Shown: piece after piece, positions 8,959-49,271 of the stretch | Layout: every line of letters starts with the position of its first letter | Position numbering within the stretch: position 1 is the stretch's first letter | IMG/VR virus record: IMGVR_UViG_3300008459_000012 | Coordinates: 27,137-91,136 of that record | DNA from: a virus | Strand: one strand, 5' to 3' | Length of the DNA stretch: 64,000 nucleotides | The notes under the pieces: generated by a model | Told to the model about the DNA's origin: nothing | Database searches by the model: none | What the model saw: only the letters and a program-made list of their open reading frames with translations | Translations under genes and position numbers: made by a program

Positions 8959-8959
8959 A

Positions 8960-10015: not shown

Positions 10016-10028
10016 TTATATATTTTTA

Positions 10029-10037
10029 TATAAATAG
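10029..10037 (-). promoter_or_regulatory. CTATTTATA box before the fibre gene at 8960-10015
   Basis: The minus strand reads GACTATTTATATAAAAATA and then the ATG, 13 bases after the box. Member of the recurring family. Confidence 0.45.
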
Positions 10038-10039
10038 TC

Positions 10040-10486: not shown

Positions 10487-10487
10487 T

Positions 10488-10898: not shown

Positions 10899-10906
10899 AA
10901 TTTTAT

Positions 10907-10915
10907 TATAAATAG
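10907..10915 (-). promoter_or_regulatory. CTATTTATA box before the gene at 10488-10898
   Basis: The minus strand reads ACTATTTATAATAAAATT then ATG, 8 bases after the box; it contains a perfect TATAAT. Immediately upstream (10916-10923) is CATAAATA, a T4-late-like core 17 bases from the ATG, so this site carries both motif types. Confidence 0.5.
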
Positions 10916-10918
10916 TAT

Positions 10919-11893: not shown

Positions 11894-11896
11894 ATT

Positions 11897-31404: not shown

Positions 31405-33975
31405 TTAATTTTGTAATTCTATAAAAGAATTTCCATTCTCATCTTTATCAACCATAATAAGGTAATCAGGATTGATTATATCGCCATATGCATGTTCAAT
31501 AATTAAAATTTTATCAATATCTTGTTTAACTTTATTCATAAGATTTATAAAGTTAATTGCGTTTCTTTCAGAGAGTTTTCCAAATAGTTCATCAAGAAGA
31601 AGAATATTTGGTCTTGACCTATTATTCATAAATCTTAATGCAAGTCTAAGACAAATACAAGCAAATACTCTTTCCATTCCTGAACCTGAAATAACATTTT
31701 GAATAATTTCAGGAGTGTCTTTCTTTGACATTTGAAAAAAGAGTTCACTATCAAAGAAAACATTAAAGTCAATATCTTCTGTATATCCTTGAAGATACAT
31801 ATTTACTTTTGGAATTAATTTCTTTAATAATGTACTTGGAATGCCTTCTCTGTGAATGCAGTTTTGATATTCTTCTCTGATTAATTCTTGTCTTTGCTGT
31901 TCTAAATACTTTGTAATTGTATCTTTATAGTTTTTAATTTCATTTTCAGCAAATTCAATCTTATATTTAAAATCATTTACTTCTTTTTTCAATGATTCTT
32001 TATCATTTTTAAATTCATTGACTTTTGATTTATATGTATCAATTTTTGATTGAATTTTATTATTCTCTTGAATATAAACTATATTAATATCATATCTTTT
32101 TAGAATATCATTTTTTTGAAAGATTTTTAAGTCAATATTTTCAATATGCATTGGAATATTATCATATTCCTGTTTGAATTTATTTCTTTTTTCAATCTCT
32201 TTAATAATTAATTCAATCTTTGTAATCTTTTCTTTTACCTTAGTGATTGCTACACTTTCTTTTTTAATCTCATCCTCAAAACCTTTTATTAATGACCTTT
32301 TACTTTCAGTCATTAATTCTTTATCTTTAATTTCTTCTTTATATTTATCAATATTTTTATTGATTGCTTTTAAATCTAGTTCATATTTCTTTTTATATGA
32401 CTCTTTTTTAATCTCACCTTTGAATTTTTCAATATTAGATTTTAGTTTATCAACTTTTACTTTGATTGATTCAATTGCATCCTCATCTTTTAAACGATTA
32501 CAACTAGGACAAACTTTACTATCTTCTAATGAGGAAATTTCCCTTTCAATTAAATCAATTTGTCTTTCTAAACCAAGTCTATCATTATCAATTTGAGAAT
32601 CAACTTTTGTTATTGCAAGATTTTCTTTATGGATATATCCATTTATTACTGCAATATCATTTGTAATGGTATTAATTTCTTTATTTAAGTCTTTTATTTG
32701 GTCATTCTTAGAAATTAACCAACCATTGAATGAATTTGATTTTTCCTTTAATGAATTATAAAGTTCTTCATCTAAAACAAACTTATTAAGTTCCTCAATT
32801 TGTTTTAAAAGGTCTTTTTGTGACCTTTTCTTTTCTTCTTTATCATTAATAAGTTTATTAATCTCATCTTTAATTTGATTAATATTTAGATTCGTTAATT
32901 TGGAATCAATTGGTTTTAATGTCTTAATTGTATTCTCAACATGAAGTTCACCATTTGAAATCCTTTCATTTAGAGTATTAATTTTATCTTCCCTATCTTC
33001 TATTTGAGTTTTATAATCCTCAATATAAACTTTTGCATCATCAATAAGTTGATTATACCTATCAACAGATATATTTAAAAGACTTTCTTTTTTATATTCA
33101 TTTTTCTTATAGGCTTTGAATACTTCAAGTTTCTTTTCAAATATATCAAGACCAGTATCTCTAAGAATTGAATCTAAGAATTTAGCATGGTCGGTTGTAA
33201 GAATATCATTTAAAGTATCAGCATTAATTAAGGATTTTGTGATAAATTCATCAAAATCCCCAATTGAATGTTCAATTAACTTTTGAGTATTAGTTTTATC
33301 CTGTTCTGAAAGATTATTTTCATCAATTATCTCACCATTTGAGTCTAATTTATTGAAATAGGTCTTTGTTGAGCATGAGGTAATCTCTGTATGTGTTTTA
33401 TCCCATTTTCTTTCAGTTCTTCTTCTAATGGCATAATCTTCACCATTGATTTCAACGATTAACTGAACTTCTGAATAATCTTTTTTGTTATTGTTGTTGA
33501 TAAATTTATTATCTCTGTTCTTCTCTTTTTTGAGAGTATCAAAGGTAGTACCATAAAGACCATATGTAATAGAGTTTAAAATGTTTGAGTTATGAACTGC
33601 AATGTTATTGGCATAATATTCACCAATACCTTCAACTTGAATATCTACTAAGTCAATAGTGGTTTGTGGGCATGTTGAAATTCTAAAAATATTTTCAATT
33701 CCATCTTTAGTTTTGACTTTAATGAAAGACCATTCATTTTTAATTTCATCAAATGATTTAAAAAGACCTAAATCTGTTCTAATAAGATGGTCTTTTGAAA
33801 CGGATAATCTTTTTCCTTTTTCCGTTTCTAATGTCCAATATTGGGAATCTTTTGAAGTGACATCATAGGCAAGAATTTTTGAATACCCACATGGGGTTTC
33901 AACCTCAATGTTTAATTCAAGAAGTAAGTCTTTTAATATTCTAAGATTTTCAATCTTTATCTGTTTCTCTGTCAT
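31405..33975 (-). CDS. split-intein C-fragment followed by SbcC/Rad50-type ATPase (T4 gp46-like)
   Basis: 856 residues from the ATG at 33975; a TTG at 33999 is possible but overlaps the preceding gene more. Residues 1-129 are an intein C-fragment: IEVETPCGYSKI, LSVSKDHLIRT (block B-like), and the terminal YYANNIAVHN with the last Asn before Ser130. Residue 130 onward is SbcC without its first residues: SNILNSITYGLYG continues a P-loop whose start is in the gene at 38906. It has a long coiled coil, a CPSC zinc hook (about 486-490), the ABC signature SGSGMERV (about 760), Walker B ILLLDE (about 788) and H-loop IIEHAYG. Role: nuclease-linked ATPase for DNA-end processing and replication. It needs trans-splicing to gain a complete Walker A. 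Confidence 0.9.
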   Translation of the reverse strand: MTEKQIKIENLRILKDLLLELNIEVETPCGYSKILAYDVTSKDSQYWTLETEKGKRLSVSKDHLIRTDLGLFKSFDEIKNEWSFIKVKTKDGIENIFRISTCPQTTIDLVDIQVEGIGEYYANNIAVHNSNILNSITYGLYGTTFDTLKKEKNRDNKFINNNNKKDYSEVQLIVEINGEDYAIRRRTERKWDKTHTEITSCSTKTYFNKLDSNGEIIDENNLSEQDKTNTQKLIEHSIGDFDEFITKSLINADTLNDILTTDHAKFLDSILRDTGLDIFEKKLEVFKAYKKNEYKKESLLNISVDRYNQLIDDAKVYIEDYKTQIEDREDKINTLNERISNGELHVENTIKTLKPIDSKLTNLNINQIKDEINKLINDKEEKKRSQKDLLKQIEELNKFVLDEELYNSLKEKSNSFNGWLISKNDQIKDLNKEINTITNDIAVINGYIHKENLAITKVDSQIDNDRLGLERQIDLIEREISSLEDSKVCPSCNRLKDEDAIESIKVKVDKLKSNIEKFKGEIKKESYKKKYELDLKAINKNIDKYKEEIKDKELMTESKRSLIKGFEDEIKKESVAITKVKEKITKIELIIKEIEKRNKFKQEYDNIPMHIENIDLKIFQKNDILKRYDINIVYIQENNKIQSKIDTYKSKVNEFKNDKESLKKEVNDFKYKIEFAENEIKNYKDTITKYLEQQRQELIREEYQNCIHREGIPSTLLKKLIPKVNMYLQGYTEDIDFNVFFDSELFFQMSKKDTPEIIQNVISGSGMERVFACICLRLALRFMNNRSRPNILLLDELFGKLSERNAINFINLMNKVKQDIDKILIIEHAYGDIINPDYLIMVDKDENGNSFIELQN
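33589..33975 (-). other. intein C-fragment (Int-C, about 129 residues)
   Basis: From Met1 to Asn129 (VHN|S). It contains the block B-like segment VSKDHLIRT, then IKVKTKDGIENIFRIS, and the C-terminal blocks DIQVEGIGEYYANNIAVHN followed by Ser130 (TCA, 33586-33588) as the nucleophile of the C-extein. There is no homing-endonuclease motif. It is much longer than the N-fragment, as in atypically split inteins. Confidence 0.88.
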
Positions 33976-34525
33976 TTTCAAGTAATGGAAAAATTTCAAT
34001 AATATTATTTACCCTATTGTTATGATTCTCATACTTCTTTTCAGGGTCAAATAAAATAATTTTTGTATTATCAAAAGATAATTCTGATAGTTTAGGATTT
34101 GCAGTTAGTATATAATCAAAATCATCATCAATGTAGTCTACAAATCTATTGTAGAATCTAATTTCATCAAAATAAAATCCTGCTGAAAAGTTTGATATAT
34201 AGAAAGCAGTTAAGTTTCTAAATTTATGTCCTTCTCTTGATATCATTACTATCTTATACCCATTTTCGGATAGTTCAGGATAAATTTGATTTAACTGTGC
34301 AATCAATTCTTTTGATGGTAATGTTGATTTAGCAAACAATTCATAGGAATATTGATACAAGAATTCTTCTAACTCATTACCTTCAAAATTAAATGAAAGT
34401 AATGGATTGAATGGGTCAATTGGATAACCTACTGACCTATCAGCAAACTCAATTTGATAGTATTGTTGAAATTTTTTGATAAAATCCCTTAAAATTCCGT
34501 TTACTTCTATTGCAAAAGTTTTCAT
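33950..34525 (-). CDS. HAD-superfamily-like phosphatase / 5'-nucleotidase-like protein
   Basis: 191 residues. The start MKTFAIEVNGILRDF resembles HAD motif I, but the usual Asp-x-Asp is Glu-Val-Asn, so the first Asp is replaced. YKIVMISREGHKFRN fits motif II (Thr/Ser). FDYILTANPKLS and IILFDPEKKYE fit the later HAD segments. Known relatives dephosphorylate nucleotides or sugars. The missing motif I Asp may mean an inactive or specialised protein. Its 3' end overlaps the start of the intein-bearing SbcC gene by 26 bases, so the two are translated together. The divergent gene at 34578 starts 52 bases away. Confidence 0.5.
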   Translation of the reverse strand: MKTFAIEVNGILRDFIKKFQQYYQIEFADRSVGYPIDPFNPLLSFNFEGNELEEFLYQYSYELFAKSTLPSKELIAQLNQIYPELSENGYKIVMISREGHKFRNLTAFYISNFSAGFYFDEIRFYNRFVDYIDDDFDYILTANPKLSELSFDNTKIILFDPEKKYENHNNRVNNIIEIFPLLENDRETDKD

Positions 34526-34577
34526 ATGACAAATATAAAAAAAATTATCGTATTATATTATCAAATTCAATAAAAAA

Positions 34578-35651
34578 ATGGATAAATTAGAAAAATTAAA
34601 CCAATTATTTAGTGATATTGAAAATAAAAATTTCAATATTTACTTGTATGTTCCTTCTATTCCTGAGAATGTATACTCAATGGCGGTTGAAGAAATATAT
34701 AACATTTGTTATCTCTTAAAAAGGAATAACTATAATGCTTTTCTTATTACAGGTGAAGATGAAAAAGAGCCTGAATATAAGATTCCTTTATATCTATCTG
34801 AAGAACTAAGGTCTTTACCGCATCTCTCACCAAAAAAAGACAATATCAGCGTTTCTCCAAGCGATGTAATGATTGTACCTGAGTTTTTTGTAAATGTAAT
34901 GCATCAAATTTCAGAAGCAAAGATTCAATGTGAAAAGATTGTTCTTTGTCAATCACAAACATATATGCTTGATTCTCTTCCACCAAATCATACTTGGGCG
35001 GCATGGGGATTCAATACAATTATTACAACTTCTGAACAGTTAAAGGAATTTATTCAAAGAAATTCAAGAGTAAATTATAATATTGAATCATATACTATTG
35101 GTATTCCTGATTATTTTAAACCTAAAAAAATCAAAAAACCAATTATTATGTATTTTTCAAGAGAGGATAGTGTAATTAAAAGATTATCAAAGATTTTCTT
35201 TATGAAATATCCTGAACTTTCTTGGGTATTGTTTGAAAGAGTTCAAGGTGGTGAACCATTTATCACAAGAGAAAAACTTGCTGAAAAAATGGGTGAAATT
35301 CCTGTTCTTCTTTGGCTTGATAAGGATGCAGGTTTTGGTACACTTCCACTTGAAGCAATGAAAAGTGGTGCTGTAGTTGTAGGTATGATTCCTGAACTTG
35401 AAAAGGATTATACTAAAGCTGATGATACAGCAGTTTGGTCAAATTCACTTGAAGTGCTTGCTGAACAACTTGGTGTTATTATTAAAGAATGGATGGTTGA
35501 TAATATCCCAACTAATGTTTATGAAAATATGCAAAAAGTTTCAAATCAGTTTACAACTGAAAATCATGAAAAAACACTAATTCAAGCTTTTTCAAACATC
35601 GTTGAAAATAGAAAAAATTTAATTAATCAAGCAATAGAAAATGAAAAATAA
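34578..35651 (+). CDS. GT-B fold glycosyltransferase (group 1-like)
   Basis: 357 residues. The C-terminal half carries the GT4-type nucleotide-sugar region (GFGTLPLEAMKSGAVVVG, about 253), with the acidic residue (Glu in LPLEAM) that contacts the sugar donor. The N-terminal half has the aromatic-rich Rossmann pattern of the acceptor domain. A related protein is at 48294 (GFGTLPLEAMACN). The protein should transfer a sugar from a nucleotide donor to a glycan or protein acceptor. It opens a plus-strand cassette with the GT-A gene at 35641, which overlaps its 3' end by 11 bases, and is followed by the sigma gene. It has no Shine-Dalgarno; the ATG follows seven A bases. Confidence 0.75.
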   Translation: MDKLEKLNQLFSDIENKNFNIYLYVPSIPENVYSMAVEEIYNICYLLKRNNYNAFLITGEDEKEPEYKIPLYLSEELRSLPHLSPKKDNISVSPSDVMIVPEFFVNVMHQISEAKIQCEKIVLCQSQTYMLDSLPPNHTWAAWGFNTIITTSEQLKEFIQRNSRVNYNIESYTIGIPDYFKPKKIKKPIIMYFSREDSVIKRLSKIFFMKYPELSWVLFERVQGGEPFITREKLAEKMGEIPVLLWLDKDAGFGTLPLEAMKSGAVVVGMIPELEKDYTKADDTAVWSNSLEVLAEQLGVIIKEWMVDNIPTNVYENMQKVSNQFTTENHEKTLIQAFSNIVENRKNLINQAIENEK

Positions 35652-36447
35652 TACCTTAGAAAATTTAACAGTAATTATTCCACTTAATAAGTTGGAGAAT
35701 GAATTGGATACTCAATTGTTTAATGTAGCGATTGAATCTATCTTTACACAAAAGAGTGATATCGTTCCAAGCGAAGTAATTATTATTACAAACAAAGAAA
35801 CTAAAGAACAAATTAAAACAGATAGACCTGTTAGTTTTGTTTTGAATGATGAAACTTCTAATAATTATCAAAGTCAAATTAACAAAGCTGTAAAAGAAGT
35901 TAAAACTTCATTTTTTATGATTTTGGATGGTGATGATGAATTTACACCAATTTATTTTGAAAATGTATCAGACCATATGGAAGAAATGTCAAATGTTGAT
36001 ATGTTCCTACCAATTGTTGCAGATGTTACATTAGATAAAAAGATTCATCGCTATATTAATGAAATCAATTGGGCAAAAGATGTAACAAATGATAAACATG
36101 GTTATCTTACAATGGAAACATTGATGAATTACAATCTTGTTTCAATTAATGGTGCTGTAATTAGAAAAGAAAAATTTGAAGAAGCAGGTGGTTTGAAAGA
36201 ATCAATGAAGCTTACTTTTGTTTATGAATTCTTAATGAGATTTACTAACATTGATGGTATTACATATACTATACCTAAGATTGGTTATCTAAGAAAAATA
36301 AACAGAGAAAATTGTTATTTAGCTGAAATGTCAAAAATGGATGGTGATGAAGTTAATTTTTGGTGGGGTTTGGCTAAAAAAGAATATGTTTGGCCTCATG
36401 ATAGAAATAAAACCTATGTAAAGAAAGAAGAAACACCTGTTATTTAA
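35641..36447 (+). CDS. GT-A fold glycosyltransferase family 2-like
   Basis: 268 residues with the GT2 pattern: NLTVIIPLN strand (9-16), a long connecting helix, and the metal-binding acidic motif in FFMILDGDDEF (DGDD at 96-99). The N-terminal part lacks the usual long loop between strand 1 and the nucleotide-binding helix, but the core is recognisable. It would add a sugar using a nucleotide-sugar donor. The start overlaps the 3' end of the upstream glycosyltransferase. Two sugar-transferase genes placed beside a late sigma gene suggest glycan modification late in infection, perhaps of virion proteins. Confidence 0.7.
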   Translation: MKNNTLENLTVIIPLNKLENELDTQLFNVAIESIFTQKSDIVPSEVIIITNKETKEQIKTDRPVSFVLNDETSNNYQSQINKAVKEVKTSFFMILDGDDEFTPIYFENVSDHMEEMSNVDMFLPIVADVTLDKKIHRYINEINWAKDVTNDKHGYLTMETLMNYNLVSINGAVIRKEKFEEAGGLKESMKLTFVYEFLMRFTNIDGITYTIPKIGYLRKINRENCYLAEMSKMDGDEVNFWWGLAKKEYVWPHDRNKTYVKKEETPVI

Positions 36448-36449
36448 TA

Positions 36450-37244
36450 ATGACTGAAAATAAAAAGGGTAGACGTGGTAGAAAAGCTAAACCAGGGTCT
36501 ATAAAAGAGTATTTTACTGACGATACAGAAAAGGCTATTATTAAATATAATAGCCCTGACTGTTCGTTAGAAGAAAAAAATGAGATTTATGAGAAACAAA
36601 TTCATAAGGCTCTAAAAAAACTTGCTTATTTTACCGCTAAATCATACTTCCTTTATTTTTCAAAGCGTTATACGATAGAAGATATGGAAAATGACCTTCT
36701 GATTTTTGCCTTCAATAATCTTCATATGTTTAATCCTGAAAAGATTAATAAACATGGTGTAAAATCAAAGGCATTTTCCTATTTCTCTACAATTTGTAAA
36801 AACGAAGCAAAACACATATCTGAAAGAAACTTTAATCAAGATAAATCTAGTGATGATGTTGTAGAAAATCTTGATTTATTTGAAAGAGATTTATCATTAT
36901 CATATTACATTGATGAAAACTTAGATGATTATACCGATACTAACTATATTAAAATAGTTTTTTTGGGTATGTGTAATGAAATTAAAAACAAAATAGAAAC
37001 AGATAAATTATTAAAAGAAATTGATGTTAATATTGGTTATTCATTAATCTCAATAATTGAAAACTTTAAGTATATTAATGAACCAACTGAATCAAAAATG
37101 AGTTTATTTTTTATCAATAATAGAGTTATTGATATGATTTGTGAAATCACAGAAAATAGATATAAAAAACAAGACATTAAAAAATCACTTAAAACATTTA
37201 AATGTGTCTATACAAAACTCAAAGATGAATATATGAATAATTAA
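36450..37244 (+). CDS. late sigma factor, T4 gp55-like
   Basis: 264 residues. Residues about 45-125 match the sigma70 region 2 core as found in T4-type late sigma factors: EKQIHKALKKLAYFTAKSYF, then a YTIEDMENDLLIFAFNNLHMFNPEK helix and AFSYFSTICKNEAKHISERN. In T4, gp55 directs host RNA polymerase to TATAAATA late promoters together with gp33 and the sliding clamp. There is no region 4, in line with gp55. The gene is two bases downstream of the GT-A gene. It probably reads the promoters of the structural genes here, and is therefore a candidate reader of the CTATTTATA or TATAAATA elements. Confidence 0.75.
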   Translation: MTENKKGRRGRKAKPGSIKEYFTDDTEKAIIKYNSPDCSLEEKNEIYEKQIHKALKKLAYFTAKSYFLYFSKRYTIEDMENDLLIFAFNNLHMFNPEKINKHGVKSKAFSYFSTICKNEAKHISERNFNQDKSSDDVVENLDLFERDLSLSYYIDENLDDYTDTNYIKIVFLGMCNEIKNKIETDKLLKEIDVNIGYSLISIIENFKYINEPTESKMSLFFINNRVIDMICEITENRYKKQDIKKSLKTFKCVYTKLKDEYMNN

Positions 37245-37253
37245 CTATTTATC
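37245..37253 (+). promoter_or_regulatory. CTATTTATC box before the gp53-like gene at 37269
   Basis: CTATTTATC, then TATAAATAATAGATA and the ATG (15 bases after the box). The intergenic sequence forms an inverted repeat CTATTTAT / ATAAATAATAG and also contains a T4-late-like TATAAATA (37254-37261). It lies immediately after the sigma gene. Confidence 0.4.
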
Positions 37254-37268
37254 TATAAATAATAGATA

Positions 37269-37571
37269 ATGGATGAGTTTAATATTTATGATGGGTTTAT
37301 AGACGACAATAGATTCTCAACACTACCATACTTTAAAATAGATGAGAGTGATACTGATATTTATATTGAATGGAATGTTGGTAATCGTTTAGATAGATTA
37401 GCATATACCTATTATCAGAACGCAGCATTGGGTAAATTCATATTAATGGCAAATCCCCAATACCTATCCGAAGGGGATTTAGATATTGGGGATATTTTAA
37501 GAATACCCATGCCAAAAGAAGATATGTTTGCCATACTAAGAAATAGAATTGAACTCTCAAGGAAGTTCTAA
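37269..37571 (+). CDS. small LysM/gp53-like baseplate protein
   Basis: 100 residues. Residues about 35-82 (NRLDRLAYTYYQNAALGKFI, then LMANPQYLSEGDLDIGDILR) follow the LysM pattern: two helices with conserved aromatic residues and a D-I-G-D-x-L-R-I-P closing strand. The same fold occurs in baseplate wedge proteins such as T4 gp53, and this length fits. A baseplate role is inferred from this family; a cell-wall binding role is possible. Its 3' end overlaps the convergent KTSC gene by 15 bases. It lies in the plus-strand cassette behind the sigma gene. Confidence 0.6.
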   Translation: MDEFNIYDGFIDDNRFSTLPYFKIDESDTDIYIEWNVGNRLDRLAYTYYQNAALGKFILMANPQYLSEGDLDIGDILRIPMPKEDMFAILRNRIELSRKF

Positions 37572-37808
37572 TCTAACTCCAAGATATCTGTTCTTGATAA
37601 ATTCTATAAATGCTTTTCCTGTTGAGTCTGCATCCTGTAGTTTAAAGTAATCTTCAGGTTTAACATTATCATATTGATATCTTAGATTACCCTTTACGAA
37701 AGTTACATATAAGGTATTGTTAGATGTATCATAAGTAGATGATACAATGTTTGATGAATCATACGTTGCTTCAACGATTCCATCTTCTTGTTTAACACTA
37801 GTTGTCAT
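37557..37808 (-). CDS. KTSC domain protein
   Basis: 83 residues. From about 17 to 72 (SSNIVSSTYDTSNNTLYVTF, then KGNLRYQYDNVKPEDYFKL and a STGKAFIEFIKNRY tail) it matches the KTSC domain, a short five-strand unit found alone in phages and prophages and at the C-terminus of some lysyl-tRNA synthetases. Its function is not established. The gene overlaps the Bcs1-like gene upstream by four bases (ATGA), so the two are co-translated and probably act together. The 3' end overlaps the convergent gp53-like gene. Confidence 0.8.
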   Translation of the reverse strand: MTTSVKQEDGIVEATYDSSNIVSSTYDTSNNTLYVTFVKGNLRYQYDNVKPEDYFKLQDADSTGKAFIEFIKNRYLGVRLELP

Positions 37809-38905
37809 AAATTTAGTAATTCTTCGTGTAGTTCTGATATATTATCAAAAGTTTTATTGTTTTCTATATTAAATTTTGTTTTTAATTCTTCAATTAAGTT
37901 TTCACTTGGTCTTTGAACCTCCATTAAAACATCGGTTCTACCCTTTCTTTTAATAGCATCATCAATTTTATCAAGTTCATTAGTTGTTATAATAAATATA
38001 ATATCATTTGGTGTATATATACCATCTAATACGTTTAAAATACAAGAAAGTGAAATTTTAACATCAGAATCTTTCTTTTCTTCCTTTCTGTTGATATCAT
38101 CTAATAAACAATCAATATCTTCAAATAATACAATTGATTTCTTTGGTCTATCAGAAATCAATGCAATAAGATTTGCATCTGTCATATCTTTAGATAAGTT
38201 AATTGCCATTATATCTCTTTTTGTATAATTAGATATACCTAATGATAATGATGATTTTCCTGTTCCTGGAGGACCATAAAAAAGATATGTTCTTTTATAT
38301 CTAATTCCATACTTATCATATTTTTCTTTTGATGAATTAAACCTATCTAAATCCTTTTTAAGGAACTCTGATACATTATTGTCAAGATAAATATTGTCAA
38401 ATGTCTTATTTATAACCTTACCTGCACATCTAATTTCACCATTAAAGTTATAAAAATACTTTATATATTTATTACCATAGTTATTATCAACATAATTCAT
38501 TAATTCTTTCAAAATAGACTTATTCCTACAAAAAATCATAAACATATGTTTATTATTCTTATATGGTGTCATACTATTTTGAATATTTTCAGCATTTTTC
38601 AACACTAAGAACCTATTTCCTTTAAATTTAAAATAAATAAATCCTGAATTATAAAACATGTTAACATCAAAGTTATCTGAACTTATAAAGTTATCATATA
38701 ATGTTCTATAATAAAGATTTTTAATAGACTCTTGTTTTTCAGATAAAACAAAGTTTTGAAATGAATAAAAGAAAAAAGAACTCTCTTCAATCTTCATTGA
38801 ACAAATGAGTCTATCTCTTAATGTTGTTAAAACAAAAAGAAAGAATTGTTTGAAGTAAACTAATGTACCTCCAAGAATGAGTGTTATTAATACTGTTTTA
38901 TCCAT
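37805..38905 (-). CDS. Bcs1-type AAA+ ATPase with N-terminal membrane segment
   Basis: 366 residues. Residues about 2-30 (LITLILGGTLVYFKQFFLFV) form a transmembrane helix, followed by a Bcs1-type N-domain (SSFFFYSFQNF). The AAA core is unmistakable: Walker A GPPGTGKSS (211-219), Walker B IVLFEDID (258-265) and a sensor region IIFIITTNELDKI. Bcs1 in mitochondria moves a folded iron-sulfur protein across the membrane; bacterial and phage relatives are of unknown role and appear in defence-related clusters. A membrane-bound hexameric remodeller is therefore likely. It is co-translated with KTSC and directly follows the split-intein SbcD gene. Confidence 0.85.
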   Translation of the reverse strand: MDKTVLITLILGGTLVYFKQFFLFVLTTLRDRLICSMKIEESSFFFYSFQNFVLSEKQESIKNLYYRTLYDNFISSDNFDVNMFYNSGFIYFKFKGNRFLVLKNAENIQNSMTPYKNNKHMFMIFCRNKSILKELMNYVDNNYGNKYIKYFYNFNGEIRCAGKVINKTFDNIYLDNNVSEFLKKDLDRFNSSKEKYDKYGIRYKRTYLFYGPPGTGKSSLSLGISNYTKRDIMAINLSKDMTDANLIALISDRPKKSIVLFEDIDCLLDDINRKEEKKDSDVKISLSCILNVLDGIYTPNDIIFIITTNELDKIDDAIKRKGRTDVLMEVQRPSENLIEELKTKFNIENNKTFDNISELHEELLNL

Positions 38906-40243
38906 TTATTTTAAAAATTCAGGTAAATATCCAAGTTTATTTATTATTTCTTCTTCGTTAAATCTAATATTGATTTTTGTTTCGGGATGAACGCATTTAC
39001 CAACCTGATTTTCTCCGTAGATTTGAATAATTCCATTCTTATCTGTTAAATCAAGTTCATATCTTTCACCATGCGATTTAAAGTTATCAAGTACAATCTT
39101 TTTAACTTTCCAATCATAGAATTGATTCTCCACATCTTTTTCAATCAATGATGTTATTTCATTATCAAGTGATAAAACATCCTTTATAAAGTCTTCTTGA
39201 TGGTTTTTAGCTTTCAAAAAGTTTATAAACTCCTGTCTTACACTATCATCATTGTTTAAATCAATTGTTTCATCAAATTCTTTAATCTTTAAAGATTTAT
39301 TTAGAATCTTAGATTTATCAAATTTAATAGTGGCGAATTCGCCATATTTAGATTCTAAATGTTTCTTAATCTTTTGTTTATTTTCAACATTAAATGTTGA
39401 ATATTGGTCCATCCAATGAATCTTAATATGATTATGTTTTCCAACATTTTTAAGTTCAATATCTAGATTTTGATAATCATAATCTTCATTGATATAGATA
39501 TTAAAGTATTTATAATCTGAGATTATTTCTTTCTTTTCAAAAGTTTTTGCTTCAATATCCCATAAAAGATAACCATGAAAAGCATTATCACCTTCACCGT
39601 AATTGGTACAATATAATGACGATGGGTAAGCAAAAAACTCTCTTCCATTTTTTTGATATGATTGTTGGAGATGTATATCTCCTGCCATTACAATATCACC
39701 TTTAAAATCAGCAAGAGAAACAATATTACTATCGGTATGGTATTGTCCATTTTGTAGATAACATCCATTAATTGGGTCATGGAAAAGGTCAATATAATAC
39801 TTATTATTATTGCGCTTTTCTTCATTGAATTCAAGCCAAGGGGATTTTCTATCAGGGTGATACCAAACAGCGAAAACAATATTATCAAGTTCAAAAAAAC
39901 CTGTTGAATCATAGTAGTGTATATTAGGATTGTTAATAATCTCAACAAGCATCTTGATTGATGACATTCTGTTGAGATTTGATTTCATTATATCGTGATT
40001 ACCATCAATAATAACCACAGGTGCTATCATAGCACAAGAAGTCAAAAAATCTCCTGCAAGGACATTGATTTCATTAAAAGGTTTTACATAGTTGTGGAAT
40101 AGGTCACCTACAATTACAATCAAATCAGGTCTGTCCTTGATTAGGGATTTAATTGTAAGACTTGAGATATGTTTTTGCTCTGCTAATCTGTCCAAATTAT
40201 TTTGGAAGTGGATATCAGCAAGATGAGCTATTTTCTGAATCAT
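38906..40243 (-). CDS. SbcD/Mre11-type nuclease fused to SbcC N-terminus and intein N-fragment
   Basis: 445 residues. Residues 1-about 370 are an Mre11/gp47-type metallophosphoesterase: D10 and H12 (ADIHFQN), GDLFH (46-50), GNHD (81-84), then a GDIHLQ motif. The C-terminus then shifts into SbcC: VKKIVLDNFKSHGERYELDL, and a P-loop start YGENQVGK. At residue 417 a Cys begins an intein N-fragment of 29 residues (CVHPETKINIRFNEEE, ending at the stop). Hence SbcD and the SbcC N-terminus are one chain that stops in the middle of a Walker A motif. The other half is at 31405-33975. After splicing the P-loop would read GENQVGKSN. Confidence 0.9.
   Translation of the reverse strand: MIQKIAHLADIHFQNNLDRLAEQKHISSLTIKSLIKDRPDLIVIVGDLFHNYVKPFNEINVLAGDFLTSCAMIAPVVIIDGNHDIMKSNLNRMSSIKMLVEIINNPNIHYYDSTGFFELDNIVFAVWYHPDRKSPWLEFNEEKRNNNKYYIDLFHDPINGCYLQNGQYHTDSNIVSLADFKGDIVMAGDIHLQQSYQKNGREFFAYPSSLYCTNYGEGDNAFHGYLLWDIEAKTFEKKEIISDYKYFNIYINEDYDYQNLDIELKNVGKHNHIKIHWMDQYSTFNVENKQKIKKHLESKYGEFATIKFDKSKILNKSLKIKEFDETIDLNNDDSVRQEFINFLKAKNHQEDFIKDVLSLDNEITSLIEKDVENQFYDWKVKKIVLDNFKSHGERYELDLTDKNGIIQIYGENQVGKCVHPETKINIRFNEEEIINKLGYLPEFLK
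38909..38995 (-). other. intein N-fragment (Int-N, 29 residues)
   Basis: It begins with the catalytic Cys (TGC, 38993-38995) after GENQVGK and contains only intein block A (CVHPETKINIR), ending in a stop. Normal N-fragments are about 100 residues, so this is an atypical, extremely short one comparable to the 25-residue type described for cold-lake phage terminase inteins. Confidence 0.85.
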
Positions 40244-40260
40244 AATACAAATATATGATT

Positions 40261-41157
40261 TTATGGGTTCATATTATCATAAATTTTATTAATTTTATTT
40301 TCCAATAACTCAAATTTAGAACCTACTTCAATTGGTTCATCCCATTTGTTATGCCAATGCCATGTAAAAGCACCATCAAAAAAATCTACATAACCAATAT
40401 TCTTAAATGCATAATCTAGTGTTGTATTTTCAAAACCCCATTCAGAATTAAACCAAACTCCTGGTAATACAAATAAATCATTTTTATTGATATTGGAGTA
40501 TAATCTATTACCCCAAGAAGTTGTATTTTTATTTGGTGGTATTTTTTTAAGTATTTCTAAAAATTCTAATGATAAACTAGATTCTTTTTCTAATCTCATT
40601 ACTGCACCATTCATAGTAATATTAGGTTCAAAGTCACTAAATCCTGATGTTCCCCATTGATAAAGGAATTCTAAATTATTCAATGGTCTCATATTTCTTA
40701 ATACTAAAACATCCATATCAATGTAAAAACCACCGTATTTATAAAGTATTAAAAGTCTAAAAACATCACCCTCTAAATAACATAAATCATCATATATATT
40801 TTCATTTTTTAGATAAATACAATCTTCTAAAATTGTATCTTTTATTTCATCATATAAATTCCAATTTTTTAAATTTACATATTTTGAAACTTCTTTAAAA
40901 AATATATTTTCACTTAAATCAACATTTGACCATAAATTAATTTCTAAATTTTCTAGTTCATTAGAATGTGATGTTATAATTGATTTTAAAACAGCTAATT
41001 GTTTTCTACCAAATTCTCTAGGTACTCTCCAAAAACAATGAAAAACTAGTTTATTTTTATTGTCATTATTTATATTTTTAGCATACTCTAAAGATTTTAA
41101 ATAACTAACCTTATCGGGCTTATATAAATTTATATTATTATCTATTAGTTTTAACAT
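40261..41157 (-). CDS. GT32-like glycosyltransferase (DXD)
   Basis: 298 residues from the ATG at 41157; a GTG at 41193 would overlap the next gene more. The segment DVFRLLILYKYGGFYIDMDV (about 131-149) is the GT32/DXD-type glycosyltransferase core, with D147-M-D149 as the metal-binding acidic motif. An N-terminal strand region (LVFHCFWRVPREFGRKQ) and a C-terminal His-rich end (GAFTWHWHNKW) are typical of the family, which includes mannosyl and glucosyltransferases. It overlaps the upstream GT8-like gene by 20 bases. It is the last gene of the sugar-modification run. Confidence 0.75.
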   Translation of the reverse strand: MLKLIDNNINLYKPDKVSYLKSLEYAKNINNDNKNKLVFHCFWRVPREFGRKQLAVLKSIITSHSNELENLEINLWSNVDLSENIFFKEVSKYVNLKNWNLYDEIKDTILEDCIYLKNENIYDDLCYLEGDVFRLLILYKYGGFYIDMDVLVLRNMRPLNNLEFLYQWGTSGFSDFEPNITMNGAVMRLEKESSLSLEFLEILKKIPPNKNTTSWGNRLYSNINKNDLFVLPGVWFNSEWGFENTTLDYAFKNIGYVDFFDGAFTWHWHNKWDEPIEVGSKFELLENKINKIYDNMNP

Positions 41158-41914
41158 TTTTAATTTTATTAATAATTTCTTTAGTATAAACACTATCTTT
41201 TATTTGATGACTATGGAATGTATAAATTTTTACAGGGATATTATAATTTATATATTTATCATTTATTTCATCATCTGTTAGTTTATTACTTATATATGCA
41301 TCAATTGTTTCAGAAAATCCATTAGGTAAATAGTTATATCCTATATCATAATCAACTTTATATTTAGTTAATAAACAATTAATAATCATTTCATCATTTC
41401 CCAAAATATAATCTCTTTTATTCATTTCATCAAATACCTCTTTAAAAAACCATTTATTTTTATTACTAAAAAGATAAGATGCATAAACATAACTCATTCT
41501 AGGTAATTCAGATGTAAAAATATTTACATGCTGCATCATAACATCTCTTGCTGATTCAAAAGCATTATGTGGATGCTTTGAAAATAAAGGAAAATCTGAA
41601 TTTATAATTTTATCTAAATTTTCTTCAAAAATATTATCTATTTTTTCTGTTACAATCATATCCGTATCAAGTATTAACCCAATATCATAATCACAATCAA
41701 TAGTTGAAAATATTTTTTGTTTACATATTTCATAATATGATTCATTATTTATTTGAATTGGTTTTATCTTTACTCTATCATTATTTGATTTATATATGAA
41801 ATTTATACTGTAAACAGTAATGTCATATTTAGAAAATTCTAAAACGGATTCAACTAAATTATCTAATATTGATACCCAATTTGATGTACAAAATGTTACA
41901 AAACCTTTTTTCAT
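41138..41914 (-). CDS. GT8-like glycosyltransferase
   Basis: 258 residues with the GT8-like layout: N-terminal sheet MKKGFVTFCTSNWVSILDNL, a metal-binding DTD at 83-85 in IGLILDTDMIV, and a later His/Asn-containing region (ILGNDEMIINC, HSHQIKD) that could bind the sugar. It should use a nucleotide sugar and a divalent metal. It overlaps its downstream neighbour by 20 bases and its start overlaps the methyltransferase gene at 41911 by four bases, giving a tight minus-strand operon. Confidence 0.65.
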   Translation of the reverse strand: MKKGFVTFCTSNWVSILDNLVESVLEFSKYDITVYSINFIYKSNNDRVKIKPIQINNESYYEICKQKIFSTIDCDYDIGLILDTDMIVTEKIDNIFEENLDKIINSDFPLFSKHPHNAFESARDVMMQHVNIFTSELPRMSYVYASYLFSNKNKWFFKEVFDEMNKRDYILGNDEMIINCLLTKYKVDYDIGYNYLPNGFSETIDAYISNKLTDDEINDKYINYNIPVKIYTFHSHQIKDSVYTKEIINKIKNVKTNR

Positions 41915-42507
41915 TTATATTTTTTAAATATCATTAACGTATTTTTAACATGGCTACCATTTGGTATATATGTAACATTACCAAATTCATCATATTTATA
42001 TACAGGTAAAGTTTCTCTCAATTCTAATGATTCTTTTTCTAGAAACTTAAAACCAATTTTATCAAAAGCATTAATCCAATAATCAGCATTTTGACAATTA
42101 ACATGATGATATCCAGGTTGCCCAGGAACTGCATGTGTCATTGCAACAATATTACAATATTCAAATGTTTTCATGAAATTAGGCATATATTGTTCCTCAA
42201 CATGTTCAACAAATTCACAACACCAAGCTAAATCATAATTTTTTTCAGGTATAAATTCCATTTCAACATAATCATGTATTTTGATGAAGTTTTTTACAGA
42301 TGAAGCTTCAATTGCTGGTAAATAACCTTCCACACCAATACCTTCTATATTTTTATCAAGAAAATATTTTAATGAATGTCCTGCTCCACACCCTACATCA
42401 ATAAATGTTTTAGGATTGTACCATTCAATTAATTTATCCCAAACTTGAGGTGACCAAGTACCAATATCATTTTCAATGATGCAACCGCCTAGATAATTTT
42501 TTTCCAT
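41911..42507 (-). CDS. SAM-dependent methyltransferase
   Basis: 198 residues. The Class I SAM-binding motif FIDVGCGAGHS lies at 35-45, a GIGVEGYLPAIE acidic loop follows, and DLAWCCEFVEHV is motif IV-like with Glu/His in place of a DPP-type catalytic site, typical of sugar or small-molecule O-methyltransferases. A C-terminal segment HHVNCQNADYWINAF fits the substrate region. In this glycan cluster, a sugar methyltransferase capping a glycan is the likely role, but DNA or protein substrates cannot be excluded. Confidence 0.7.
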   Translation of the reverse strand: MEKNYLGGCIIENDIGTWSPQVWDKLIEWYNPKTFIDVGCGAGHSLKYFLDKNIEGIGVEGYLPAIEASSVKNFIKIHDYVEMEFIPEKNYDLAWCCEFVEHVEEQYMPNFMKTFEYCNIVAMTHAVPGQPGYHHVNCQNADYWINAFDKIGFKFLEKESLELRETLPVYKYDEFGNVTYIPNGSHVKNTLMIFKKYK

Positions 42508-42533
42508 ATTTTTTTGTTTGACTAGTAATATTA

Positions 42534-43307
42534 TTATAATACGATTTTTTCTTTAATAAAGTTTGTCCAATATGAAATTTTTAATTTATCCATATTCCAA
42601 TCTTTATTTATAATTTCTATATATTTTTTATTTAAAAATTCTTCATTTATTTCACTCCAATCATTAATAAAAAGAATTGGTAAATCAATAAATAATTCAT
42701 ACGCTCTATGGTATTTAACAATTGGTATACTACCCATATATAATGTTTCCCATAACCTATGTGTATCTATTCCATTTCCTCTTGGACAAATTACAAATTT
42801 TGATGATTTTATTTCTTGTAGAAACTTTTTACGACCATCAATCGTATTATTAATATTTCCAACACATACCCATTCAATATTATTAAACATATCAAAAATA
42901 TATTTTCTTTTATAAAATGTATTAACATTAAAATTCATGTATAATAATATTTTTTTGTCTATTTTCTGATTCATAATATCAATCATTATATCCCTATTTC
43001 CATATATTTTATGTAAATCAGAATCATCACAATAATTTGTTATACCAAGTGGTAGACCAAAAACATTTACAGAATCAGTATCTTTATTTATGCAAAATAT
43101 TTTTTTAAATTTATTTGCTATATTATCATCAATTGGATAATCTGAATGACCAATAAAACAAATATCATCAATTTTTTTTGGATGTACATGTCCTCTCCAA
43201 TAAAACTGCCCAATGTGAAAATAATCAGTCTTAATATAACAAATATTATTTTCATTACAAAATGAAAGATAATTATCTGTAGAAATTATATCATCAATGC
43301 ATATCAT
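42534..43307 (-). CDS. exostosin/GT47-like glycosyltransferase
   Basis: 257 residues. The motif FVICPRGNGIDTHRLWE (about 178-194) with the following GSIPIVK segment is the exostosin-type (GT47) nucleotide-sugar site, where the Arg and Glu are the key residues. The N-terminal half shows a Rossmann-like pattern rich in Ile, Tyr and Asn. Exostosin relatives transfer glucuronic acid, N-acetylglucosamine or other sugars. Its 5' end overlaps the next FkbM-type gene by 14 bases. Codon use is extremely A/T-rich. Confidence 0.65.
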   Translation of the reverse strand: MICIDDIISTDNYLSFCNENNICYIKTDYFHIGQFYWRGHVHPKKIDDICFIGHSDYPIDDNIANKFKKIFCINKDTDSVNVFGLPLGITNYCDDSDLHKIYGNRDIMIDIMNQKIDKKILLYMNFNVNTFYKRKYIFDMFNNIEWVCVGNINNTIDGRKKFLQEIKSSKFVICPRGNGIDTHRLWETLYMGSIPIVKYHRAYELFIDLPILFINDWSEINEEFLNKKYIEIINKDWNMDKLKISYWTNFIKEKIVL

Positions 43308-44220
43308 TAATTAATTGTTTAAAATATTCAATTGATGTCAATTTAGTGTTTTTTCTATTTCCTATTATAAATGGTTCAATTTCATTTAATTCATTTGGGC
43401 ATGATAATATAAAACCATCATATTGAAATGTTTCATTATCATAATCACATGAACAAAGTATTTTATATTTATTTTCCTTTAGAAAATTAATACAGTTATT
43501 ATGTAATTCATTACTGTGTGTTGATAAAAATATATATTTTATTTTTTTATTTATTAAAAGTTCTTTTATTTGATTTAACATTTCAAATTCATATCCTTGT
43601 ATATCAGAATGTAATATATCTATATATTTTATATCCTTTTGTGTAACAAAATTTAAAAGATTGATACCATTAAACCCTATAAATCCTTGACTAAAATCAC
43701 CTTCCACATTATTTAATTTAAAATTTTCAATACCTGCGGATAAACATTTTTCATCAGAATCTATACAATATGTTTTCCCATTTATTATATTCTTTAAAAA
43801 CCATATTGAATAAAAAGCCCAATAACTACCAAGTTCAATCATAATACCATCTTCTTTTATATTTTGTATAACTTTACTAAATGCTCTTTCTTCCGATGGT
43901 TCATGTACTCCTTTATTTAAAATTAATATATCACTAAAATCATTATAATAACATTTATTATAAACTTTTATATTATTATGTAATGTAATTATATTATTAT
44001 CTAGATTGCCTGAAAATTCTGACCTTTTAATAAATAAATTATTTGGGTCGGAAATAACATCTCTAAACCTATCTATAAATGTTTCTCCTTTTATATTTTC
44101 TGTATCAGTCTCTAAAATTTTAAAAATTTCATCATTAAAATACTCATCACCAAATGATTTTTCATCATTTATAATTCCATTATTATTTAATAATATTCTA
44201 ATTTCTTTATAAATATCCAT
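43294..44220 (-). CDS. FkbM-like methyltransferase
   Basis: 308 residues. An N-terminal 100-residue region is not recognised. From about 120 the motif GIMIELGSYWAFYSIWFLKN is the SAM-binding GxG-type loop, and YIDILHSDIQGYEFEML (about 200) is the FkbM Asp-x-x-Gly-like motif that coordinates the catalysis. Later THSNELHNNCI and DGFILSC complete the fold. FkbM enzymes O-methylate sugars or polyketides. It overlaps the GT47-like gene and is five bases downstream of a second FkbM gene, so two methylations of one glycan are likely. Confidence 0.65.
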   Translation of the reverse strand: MDIYKEIRILLNNNGIINDEKSFGDEYFNDEIFKILETDTENIKGETFIDRFRDVISDPNNLFIKRSEFSGNLDNNIITLHNNIKVYNKCYYNDFSDILILNKGVHEPSEERAFSKVIQNIKEDGIMIELGSYWAFYSIWFLKNIINGKTYCIDSDEKCLSAGIENFKLNNVEGDFSQGFIGFNGINLLNFVTQKDIKYIDILHSDIQGYEFEMLNQIKELLINKKIKYIFLSTHSNELHNNCINFLKENKYKILCSCDYDNETFQYDGFILSCPNELNEIEPFIIGNRKNTKLTSIEYFKQLINDMH

Positions 44221-44225
44221 ATTTA

Positions 44226-44849
44226 TTATTTATTTAATACTAAATTAACACCATTATCTATCAAAATATTGTTAATACCAAATTTATTGCAATAAGTAAT
44301 TATTTCATTTTTAACCTCAATCATATTGTTATATTCTATTATTAGTAATTCAACTTCCATATCATTAAGATTCATCTGTTTTAAAATAAGTAAATCCATG
44401 CCCTCAATATCTATTGATATGTAGTCAAATTTTTTAATCGGCATTTCTTCGTATAAAGTATTAAAATCTACACAATCTATTTCAAATTTTGAAAATGAAA
44501 ACCCCCTACTTGAGTCTTGATAATTAGATTCAACAATTGTTGATAATAAATCAGTATCTCCTCTTCCAAAATGATTTAAATTGTGATAAAAGGTGGTTTT
44601 ACCAATTTTATCGGAAAGACACTTATTTAAACAATAAATATTTTTATTATTTTCATGTTCTTTTACTAATTTTTCAAAAGCAATGTGTGATGCTTCTATC
44701 AACACACCTGACCAACCTTCTTCTATAAAAAGAAGTGAATTGCTTATGGTTCTTCCATCATTTGCTCCTATGTCAAGAAGATTTCCTTTTTTATTTTTAA
44801 AAAATTCTAAAATTTTTAAATCTTCTCCGTATTGTGAATAACTTTTCAT
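44226..44849 (-). CDS. FkbM-family methyltransferase
   Basis: 207 residues, a compact FkbM domain. The SAM motif is LLDIGANDGRT (24-34). The acidic loop IEASHIAFEKL (52-62) follows, then the conserved SIDIEGMDLLIL (about 142-153) with the Asp-Glu-Gly signature. The N-terminus SQYGEDLKILEFF is the usual family lead-in. It likely methylates a hydroxyl on a sugar made by the neighbouring glycosyltransferases. It lies five bases upstream of the other FkbM-like gene. Confidence 0.8.
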   Translation of the reverse strand: MKSYSQYGEDLKILEFFKNKKGNLLDIGANDGRTISNSLLFIEEGWSGVLIEASHIAFEKLVKEHENNKNIYCLNKCLSDKIGKTTFYHNLNHFGRGDTDLLSTIVESNYQDSSRGFSFSKFEIDCVDFNTLYEEMPIKKFDYISIDIEGMDLLILKQMNLNDMEVELLIIEYNNMIEVKNEIITYCNKFGINNILIDNGVNLVLNK

Positions 44850-44859
44850 ATTTTTTATA

Positions 44860-45489
44860 TTATTTAATTTTATTTCTCAAATTTGATTCATATTTATATT
44901 CTGAACCTTGCCCTATGATAGTTGGTTCGGTCCAATAATATATTAAATTTAAATCTTTTTTTATTATATTTAAATGCCAATCAATTGGTGCATTAAATGG
45001 TAATGTTTTTAGTATTTTATTTATACATTTAATATTTATAATATAACCACATACACTTCTACTTGAATTTGCTTCGTAAATATAATTATTTTCTTCTATT
45101 TCATTTATATGTAAATTACAACAATCTGACAAAAAACAGATGTCAAATTTAACATTTTGTAATTGACTTAAAATATTTTCAAATATATTAAAATTATCTT
45201 TAAAAACCGCATCATCTTCTATTATTAAACAATTTTTATAGCCATTATTTAATATTTTTTGGTAAACATTAAAATGATTAATTGATACACATATTTCACC
45301 AATCGTTAATTTTCTATTCCAAATTGAATAATTTTCTTGATAAAAATCATTAATATTATAATTTAAATCTGTCTCATTATTACTTATTATATATTCATAT
45401 GGTATTTTTAAATTATTAATAATTGAATCAATATATTTTTTTCTTTCATAAAGTGGTTCATAATGTATAATAAAAATTTTATCTATCAT
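44860..45489 (-). CDS. GT25-like glycosyltransferase
   Basis: 209 residues with GT25 landmarks: KIFIIHYEPLYERKKYI at the start, LTIGEICVSINHFNVYQKI (61-79), and the acidic motif CLIIEDDAVF with EDD at 91-93. A later SSRSVCGYIIN and NAPIDWHLNI fit the acceptor region. GT25 enzymes are known mainly as lipooligosaccharide galactosyltransferases. Here it would add galactose or a similar sugar to a glycan. It overlaps the GT9-like gene by four bases (ATGA). Confidence 0.75.
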   Translation of the reverse strand: MIDKIFIIHYEPLYERKKYIDSIINNLKIPYEYIISNNETDLNYNINDFYQENYSIWNRKLTIGEICVSINHFNVYQKILNNGYKNCLIIEDDAVFKDNFNIFENILSQLQNVKFDICFLSDCCNLHINEIEENNYIYEANSSRSVCGYIINIKCINKILKTLPFNAPIDWHLNIIKKDLNLIYYWTEPTIIGQGSEYKYESNLRNKIK

Positions 45490-46169
45490 ATTATTTTAAA
45501 ATTTAATTTTGAATGTGGGTTATATCCTCTATTTATATTGTTTTTTAAATTTACATGAAAAAAAATATTATTATTTCTTAATTCTAAAGAATCAAAAATT
45601 AATCTGAATGAACTATCAATAAAATGACTTTCAACACTATTTTGCATTAAATAACAATAATCAAAACTATTTTCTGTATAACCTAATATTGGTTTTATTA
45701 CTTTTAAATCTTTATTTAATATATGTGATTCATCAATATTATAATTTCTACTTTTATCATCATGTATAAAAATGTAATCATTTTCTTTAACATTAAATTT
45801 TTTAAATAATTTAATTTCATTATCAATATCTCTATCAACTTTAAATGAAGACCATCTTTTTTCAAAAGGTATGTTATTTTGTAGGTAAAAACTATCATCA
45901 AATTCTACAGAATTTGGATGTTTCATAAACCCAGCTATAATTAATTCATCTTTTTTTAAATTATTTTCTATAATAAAATTTTGAGTAAAAGTATCGTCTC
46001 CAACTATAAAATCTAGATTTTTTAAATCTCTATACATAAATTTTACAGTTTTTAAATTATGTGGTTTAACAAACATCATATAGTTATCATTAGAATTAAT
46101 TAATGTTCTAACTAAACCATTACAAATAATGTGGTCACCAAGTCCTAAATGATGGTATATGTATTTCAT
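45486..46169 (-). CDS. heptosyltransferase-like (GT9-like) protein
   Basis: 227 residues. The start HLGLGDHIICNGLVRTLIN (7-25) resembles the Gly-rich nucleotide-side loop of ADP-heptose transferases and similar GT-B enzymes. The C-terminal half (FDYCYLMQNSVESHFIDSSF) resembles the second domain in a shortened form. At 227 residues it is shorter than usual GT9 enzymes (about 330), so it may be a minimal or specialised enzyme. It starts one base after the next gene's stop. Confidence 0.5.
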   Translation of the reverse strand: MKYIYHHLGLGDHIICNGLVRTLINSNDNYMMFVKPHNLKTVKFMYRDLKNLDFIVGDDTFTQNFIIENNLKKDELIIAGFMKHPNSVEFDDSFYLQNNIPFEKRWSSFKVDRDIDNEIKLFKKFNVKENDYIFIHDDKSRNYNIDESHILNKDLKVIKPILGYTENSFDYCYLMQNSVESHFIDSSFRLIFDSLELRNNNIFFHVNLKNNINRGYNPHSKLNFKII

Positions 46170-46846
46170 TATTTACTTAATAAATATCTTTTTAATGATT
46201 CTTTATATTCAATTATTTCATTATCGTTTTCATCATAAACCTGACCAACAAATTCATAATCCACTCTTTCACTAGGAAAATCAAACGATGCACTCTCAAA
46301 TTTAAAAATATCATCATGTGTTATTGAATTATACCTAATAATAGGATAAATTACATCTCTAAGAAAGTTTTGGTCAACTTGCCAATAATCACCTTTTGTA
46401 TATTCTTCTATAAGTTTTTTAATATTTGTAATTGCACCTTTTCTAGCACCCCACATACCACCCAAAATAGGTACACCATGACTTGGATGGTCTCTCATAA
46501 TATGAAACTTTTGTTTAGTTGATAACCATTCATCAATTGCTAGTTTTTCTCTCATTGAAAGTCTTGAATCTGTATCTCTACTAATTAATACATCTACGTC
46601 TTCATCATCAATAGGTAAAAATCTCCAAAACATACCTTCCCAATTTCCATTTTCACCCATTTCAATAATATGTGTGTTATCAAAAGATTTTAATTCATCA
46701 ACAATATTGCTTGGTGTTGATTTACCAACATAAAAATAGCAAACCCAATCAGGAAATAGTTCTTTTGCTAATTGAGCATTCTTAATTGCTCCAACTGTAT
46801 ATTTTGGATTATCTCCCCAAACACTAAATCCTATTACTTTTTTCAT
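46169..46846 (-). CDS. GT-A-like glycosyltransferase
   Basis: 225 residues. The motif DVLISRDTDSRLS (85-97), with DTD at 91-93, is a DXD-type metal-binding site. The preceding WEGMFWRFLPID and the later WGARKGAI are shared by a phage- and bacteria-associated group of glycosyltransferases. It should use a divalent-metal-bound nucleotide sugar. It overlaps the next gene by one base (TAATG) and its 5' neighbour by four bases. The acceptor cannot be determined from the sequence. Confidence 0.6.
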   Translation of the reverse strand: MKKVIGFSVWGDNPKYTVGAIKNAQLAKELFPDWVCYFYVGKSTPSNIVDELKSFDNTHIIEMGENGNWEGMFWRFLPIDDEDVDVLISRDTDSRLSMREKLAIDEWLSTKQKFHIMRDHPSHGVPILGGMWGARKGAITNIKKLIEEYTKGDYWQVDQNFLRDVIYPIIRYNSITHDDIFKFESASFDFPSERVDYEFVGQVYDENDNEIIEYKESLKRYLLSK

Positions 46847-47502
46847 ATAAAATTATTTTCTTTTCTATTGATAAAATTTTCTTTATCTATATTGTTAAAA
46901 GAGTCATTTTTTACTTGGACATCATCCCATTGTTCCCCTTTCCAAACAGGATGTTCATGTTTAATAATTACTTGTGGAATATATGTTTGTTTATTTAATG
47001 ATTGAGCAACTTCGGTAAATTCATTATCACACCAAAGTGATATATATGAAGGATGATAAATATATCCAAACCTATCATAATATTTTTTACCCAAAATACA
47101 TAAAGTATTTAGATTTCTTGCTTGATAACCATCATTAAACCAAAGAACTCCATCTGTATCAGGATAATGTTTCATCATCATTGCTCTGATAATCATATCA
47201 TATCCTTCAAATTGAGGAATCATATCATCTGAAGCTAAAAGAAGAATATTAAAATCTTCATTTTCAAGATTTGCATTAATTGCTTCAATCTTTGATTTGT
47301 TATCAGAAAAGTGATAATCTAAATTTTTATATGTTTTTAGTTTTGAAATTACTTCATCATTATTCATTGATAAATCATCATTATCACAAGATACAACAAC
47401 TTTATAATTATCAGTATCCTCAAGATAATTAATATATAAATCTAGAACTTGAAAAAATTTATCTTTTCTACCTCTAGTTGGAAACTTTATCAATAACTTC
47501 AT
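46843..47502 (-). CDS. GT2-like glycosyltransferase
   Basis: 219 residues. The N-terminus KLLIKFPTRGRKDKFFQVL, the VVVSCDNDDLSM loop and the metal-binding SDD at 91-93 in ILLLASDDMIPQFEG are GT-A family 2 features. A late GKKYYDRFGYIYHPSYIS segment fits the acceptor side. It overlaps the downstream gene by four bases and the upstream gene by 29 bases. Sequence conservation with well-known GT2 enzymes is low. Confidence 0.6.
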   Translation of the reverse strand: MKLLIKFPTRGRKDKFFQVLDLYINYLEDTDNYKVVVSCDNDDLSMNNDEVISKLKTYKNLDYHFSDNKSKIEAINANLENEDFNILLLASDDMIPQFEGYDMIIRAMMMKHYPDTDGVLWFNDGYQARNLNTLCILGKKYYDRFGYIYHPSYISLWCDNEFTEVAQSLNKQTYIPQVIIKHEHPVWKGEQWDDVQVKNDSFNNIDKENFINRKENNFI

Positions 47503-48292: not shown

Positions 48293-48293
48293 T

Positions 48294-49247: not shown

Positions 49248-49248
49248 A

Positions 49249-49266
49249 TTCCCAAATATATGGGAA
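49249..49266 (-). other. stem-loop immediately upstream of the glycosyltransferase ATG
   Basis: TTCCCA, loop TATATT, TGGGAA ends one base before the ATG at 49247 on the minus strand. It could hide the start or mark the end of the preceding transcript. The plus-strand reading is followed by ATTTTTT. Only six base pairs, so weak. Confidence 0.3.
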
Positions 49267-49271
49267 ATTTT

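Follow-up and report, generated by a model that had tools for sequence, protein, structure and literature searches.

In a stretch of viral DNA 64,000 nucleotides long, here called the window, one open reading frame (ORF) ends in 29 codons that resemble the beginning of an intein and are followed at once by a stop codon. This raises the questions of where the remainder of the intein is encoded, which protein it interrupts, and at what point of its fold it is cut. A preliminary description of the locus had taken it for a split intein of the atypical class, with an extremely short N-terminal fragment comparable to that of AceL. Very probably, the two fragments form a class 1 mini-intein (Cys1/Ser+1) that is split in nature, fractures a gene for single-chain Mre11-Rad50 in a large tailed phage and is predicted to rejoin the two halves by splicing. 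The kind of system, protein splicing by a split intein, is already known.

The two genes and the interval between them

The N-terminal (IntN) and C-terminal (IntC) intein fragments are encoded by separate genes, the N-gene and the C-gene, each of which also carries one part of the host protein:

38996..40243, minus strand: N-extein, 416 amino acids (aa), a complete Mre11/SbcD nuclease and the start of the Rad50 ATPase to the Walker A Lys (GENQVGK); from Pfam, AF2 and motifs
38909..38995, minus strand: IntN, 29 aa, CVHPETKINIRFNEEEIINKLGYLPEFLK, with block A and Cys1; from ORF reading
38906..38908, minus strand: TAA stop codon of the N-gene; from sequence reading
33589..33975, minus strand: IntC, 129 aa, from the start Met to AVHN, with blocks B, F and G, block B His63, penultimate His128 and Asn129; from ORF reading and a HINT fold model
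31408..33588, minus strand: C-extein, 727 aa, the remaining Rad50/SbcC from Ser+1 (the Walker A Ser); from PHROG, Pfam and motifs

IntN comprises residues 417 to 445 of the ORF at 38906-40243 on the minus strand, exactly as the preliminary description had placed it, and the C-terminal end of the N-gene product reads GIIQIYGENQVGK-CVHPETKINIRFNEEEIINKLGYLPEFLK-stop. IntC comprises residues 1 to 129 of an 856-aa ORF; it ends in LVDIQVEGIGEYYANNIAVHN and is followed by SNILNSITYGLYG, the next residue being S130 (Ser+1). The preliminary description had named a C-gene beginning further 5' and carrying another block A as grounds against its reading. Read back from the ATG, the frame meets an in-frame stop after 11 codons, which leaves no room for a second block A. 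The allocation that the preliminary description had given stands: the N-fragment has block A as its sole block, and the 129-aa C-fragment holds block B onward, here B, F and G. Extension of IntN into a block B by frameshifting or readthrough was rejected because no downstream frame continues into one; readthrough is also contradicted by two relatives (L001 and L007) in which different genes directly follow IntN. Low synonymous divergence across IntN codons 14 to 29 was considered as a sign of a hidden RNA signal and discarded, since this stretch ranks 55th of 430.

The halves are 4.9 kb apart in the window (33976..38905), separated by these genes:

37808-38905, minus strand: BCS1-like AAA; family match
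37560-37808, minus strand: KTSC; family match
37269-37568, plus strand: baseplate/LysM-like; family match
36450-37241, plus strand: ORF of unknown function
35641-36444, plus strand: glycosyltransferase family 2; family match
34578-35648, plus strand: ORF of unknown function
33953-34525, minus strand: ORF of unknown function, its end overlapping the start of IntC

Across the split loci the distance is approximately 4 to 5.8 kb, and gene content and order between the halves are largely kept, barring single gains and losses. No endonuclease family match was obtained among the intervening genes, so that the homing endonuclease of a Dassa-type fractured gene was not found between the halves. A promoter scan gave results near the level of shuffled sequence, and no Rfam elements were found. 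The gene immediately after IntN varies among close relatives: an FkbM methyltransferase is inserted in L001 (11326-11946, plus strand), and in L007 (11336-11580, plus strand) the BCS1-like AAA gene is missing. In L008, a more distant relative, a 377-aa ORF (15218-16348, plus strand) with membrane segments apparent by eye and no convincing family directly precedes the IntC gene, with a TAATG stop/start overlap. Many glycosyltransferase- and methyltransferase-like ORFs also occupy 40261-49271 and 34578-36447 of the window; the stretch next to the N-gene seems highly variable, since relatives carry different sugar- and methyl-transfer genes there.

Evidence for an intein

Joined IntN and IntC matched the NCBIfam model intein_Nterm (TIGR01445) with an E value of 5e-4 and 20.9 bits, below its cut-off of 24.5, and matched the gp41-1 intein in the PDB (E 4e-5). 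A seven-sequence profile of the pair matched gp41-1 (E 2e-10) as well as the DnaX, NrdJ-1, VidaL and Cat inteins. The whole-intein Pfam model PF14890 matched weakly (E 0.02 to 0.05, far below cut-off) and intein_Cterm (TIGR01443) had no match in the viral record, which indicates that the intein motifs are divergent; standard intein models would miss this intein. Its sequence differs from those of known inteins, as the preliminary description had claimed; identity to VidaL is approximately 20%. Its best sequence relative in the PDB, gp41-1 (6qaz), shares Cys1 and Ser+1 but is a canonical split intein with a long IntN and another host protein.

An AF2 model of IntC alone, built from seven sequences, adopts the HINT fold with a pLDDT of 83.8, and its Foldseek matches were mostly inteins and hedgehog HINT domains. 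VidaL gave the highest TM-score among the PDB matches listed (0.84, rmsd 1.8 A) and gp41-1 the best E value (8e-7), whereas the TM-score for Cat was lower (0.58). IntN was modeled with low confidence in the AF2 prediction of the N-gene product. In the seven split copies, C1, H3, P4, T6 and I10 of IntN and SxxH63, H128, N129 and S130 of the C-gene product are invariant, and conservation is poor between blocks B and F. The pair thus has the features of class 1, namely Cys1, a block B His, a penultimate His, a terminal Asn, Ser+1 and a predicted HINT fold. The same IntN/IntC pair is present in several independent contigs. Judged by sequence, its resemblance to inteins is not due to chance, and the split intein is real and probably functional.

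The split was found in two lineages, the window's clade (L001 to L007 and L009; N-gene 91 to 96% identical, IntN 29 to 32 aa) and a 53%-identical relative, L008 (IntN 17 aa); the contigs of L003 and L004 hold the N-half only. In a tree rooted at the midpoint only, the split copies form one clade with 100/100 support, apart from the fused sequences, and the simplest reading is a single origin of the split. Pooled pairwise counts, which are not a formal test, gave dN/dS values of 0.14 for IntN, 0.23 for IntC, and 0.055 and 0.065 for the sampled exteins, and purifying selection on the fragments and the exteins is clear. These values, far below 1, argue against a decaying gene pair whose short fragment arose by truncation, as do the intact halves in several contigs and in the 53%-identical relative; the variable IntN length (29, 32 and 17 aa) would suit such decay, to which we give almost no credence.

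The host protein and its relatives

The N-extein matched Pfam Metallophos (2.6e-12), the AF2 model of the N-gene product matched Mre11/SbcD structures (best E 1e-14), and the Mre11 motifs D10/H12, GD47, GNHD84, H155 and GDIH191 are present. The C-extein matched phrog_77 SbcC (2.9e-30) and, below the Pfam cut-off, SbcC_Walker_B (9e-5), and contains a CPSC zinc hook, an SGSGMER signature, an LLLDE Walker B motif and IIEH (H-loop). The split point lies inside the Rad50 Walker A loop, between Lys and Ser (GENQVGK-intein-SNILNS). The preliminary description was silent both on the fused Mre11-Rad50 host and on the cut in its ATP-binding loop. Splicing is predicted to yield the peptide GENQVGKSNILNSITY across the junction, within a product of 1143 aa (416 + 727) that falls in the range of full-length fused Mre11-Rad50 ORFs, mostly approximately 1,000 to 1,260 aa.

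Mre11 and Rad50 are encoded as one ORF with no insertion at this site in approximately 70 related viral loci among the matches listed; one survey covered the best 80, and the contigs include some near-duplicates and some that stop shortly beyond the site. An uncultured phage of 735 kb has the insertion-free site GENQQGK/TTIIDAICFILYG in a fused ORF of 1202 aa, and annotated genes of Tenacibaculum, Chryseobacterium, Sphingomonas and Microcystis phages cross the site as a single ORF. PHROG 35725 spans the fusion, and the single-chain protein of Tenacibaculum phage PTm1 (YP_009873759; phrog_35725) has the domain order of the predicted spliced product, but its Walker A site carries no intein. The intein is thus naturally split: two genes carry one extein part each, and the two parts, once joined, can be aligned with fused Mre11-Rad50 through the splice site. 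No contiguous intein was found at the Walker A site in the approximately 70 fused loci listed, the phage collection or the genome contigs. In a search limited to the open-access literature, we found no relevant report of a split intein with gp46 or Mre11; provisionally, Mre11-Rad50 is a new host protein for a split intein.

Other insertions were seen elsewhere in the fused gene. In another phage (L068 and L072, both 8780-13090, plus strand) the fused Mre11-Rad50 carries an apparent large contiguous intein at the Mre11 active-site motif (GNHD/C), ending ITGN/C and apparently with an endonuclease-like insert. In two other phages (L071, 10661-11581, and L017, 2248-3162, both plus strand) the Mre11 part is interrupted by an ORF that is zinc-finger-like and has similarity to Vsr or TnsA nucleases; no Rfam intron was found at these interruptions. 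The interrupting ORFs and the intein cases suggest that homing elements have targeted the fused gene repeatedly.

Separate Mre11 and Rad50 proteins are found in most cells and in T4. The intein halves might associate but have lost splicing, leaving Mre11 and Rad50 as a non-covalent complex partly held by intein pieces, in the way that two-gene SbcCD works without fusion; the commonness of separate proteins and the weak whole-intein profile matches would fit. We regard this as very improbable: the splice-junction residues are all invariant while the intein linker drifts, and the glycines and lysine of Walker A are missing from the unspliced C-gene product, the unspliced N-gene product having only an ATPase stub, so that no single unspliced chain would have a complete ATP site. 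Judged from the two reading frames, the Walker A loop is complete in neither precursor and would become so only by splicing, the occurrence of which we infer.

Position of the cut and proposed splicing

Canonical split inteins usually have an IntN of approximately 100 aa and an IntC of approximately 35 to 40 aa (PMC10189870); the preliminary description was correct on the usual N-fragment length but not in placing the usual cut near the middle. In natural inteins with a short IntN, the cut follows either strand 2 (S1; VidaL and PolB16) or helix 1 (S2; AceL and GOS-TerL) (PMC13014065), and characterized natural atypical IntNs range from 15 to 37 aa (PolB16 15, VidaL 16, AceL 25, GOS-TerL 37) (PMC13014065, PMC11766414). 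With an IntN of 29 aa (17 aa in L008) and an IntC of 129 aa, the intein here does belong to the natural atypical class, but by the same range its IntN is not extremely short.

Helix 1 is predicted within IntC, at model residues 8 to 17, and this stretch is also present in L008, whose 17-aa IntN has no tail. The cut in the L008 IntN aligns within one residue of the apparent junction of VidaL, as placed from the 16-aa length of its IntN rather than from its PDB entry. Because helix 1 is in IntC and the L008 cut aligns with the VidaL junction, the intein is probably split at S1, after strand 2 and before helix 1, with IntN residues ~18 to 29 forming a tail of approximately 12 residues that L008 lacks and that leaves some doubt. 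The tail is predicted to be helical, at low confidence in the AF2 model of the N-gene product, and could be a second, competing helix. If helix 1 were instead supplied by the tail (EEEIINKLGYLPEFLK), the intein would be of the AceL type (S2), and its 29-aa IntN is close in length to those of AceL (25) and Cat (30). We consider this subtype unlikely, since IntC holds its own predicted helix 1, shared with the tail-less L008, and reaches its highest TM-score with VidaL, which is split at S1, and a lower one with Cat (TM 0.58). The AceL-type assignment proposed earlier is thus probably wrong as to position.

VidaL (PDB 6vgv; IntN 16 aa, S1) shares the short IntN, the same predicted cut after strand 2 and Cys dependence, but differs in its low identity and in lacking the extra IntN residues. 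The PolB16 OarG intein (IntN 15 aa) shares the S1 position but is serine dependent (Ser1/Ser+1), unlike the Cys1 intein here, and has a DNA polymerase host. AceL-TerL, GOS-TerL and Cat (IntN 25, 37 and 30 aa, S2) likewise combine an atypical short IntN with a long IntC but are cut after helix 1 and reside in the large terminase.

By analogy with inteins in general, from which association, the chemistry and a need for splicing in ATPase activity are inferred, the N-gene would produce the whole Mre11 nuclease, the first ~35 Rad50 residues to the Walker A lysine and the 29-aa IntN, and the C-gene would produce the 129-aa IntC and the remainder of Rad50 from the Walker A serine. IntN would provide the HINT fold with its first strands and dock on the near-complete IntC. 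Cys1 would then undergo an N-S shift, capturing the Lys(-1) peptide bond; transesterification by Ser+1 would give a branched ester, Asn129 would cyclize, and an acyl shift would leave GENQVGK-SNILNS in one 1143-aa chain.

It is conceivable, although we think it doubtful, that trans-splicing serves as a control step. Free Mre11 and an ATPase-dead Rad50 would then be made, possibly at different times since the halves lie 5 kb apart with opposite-strand genes between them; an ATP-gated nuclease would arise only once both were present, by way of a P-loop that splicing puts together, and the conserved IntN tail would tune association.

The short-IntN class, which is used for N-terminal protein labeling, has few characterized natural members, and the intein described here would bring it a divergent S1-type family, with natural 17- and 29-aa versions, as well as a further host protein. 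The many unsplit fused relatives permit a clean comparison of the gene before and after fracture. Because the Walker A loop contains the junction, splicing should be directly readable as ATPase activity, so that what splicing does in a repair enzyme can be tested.
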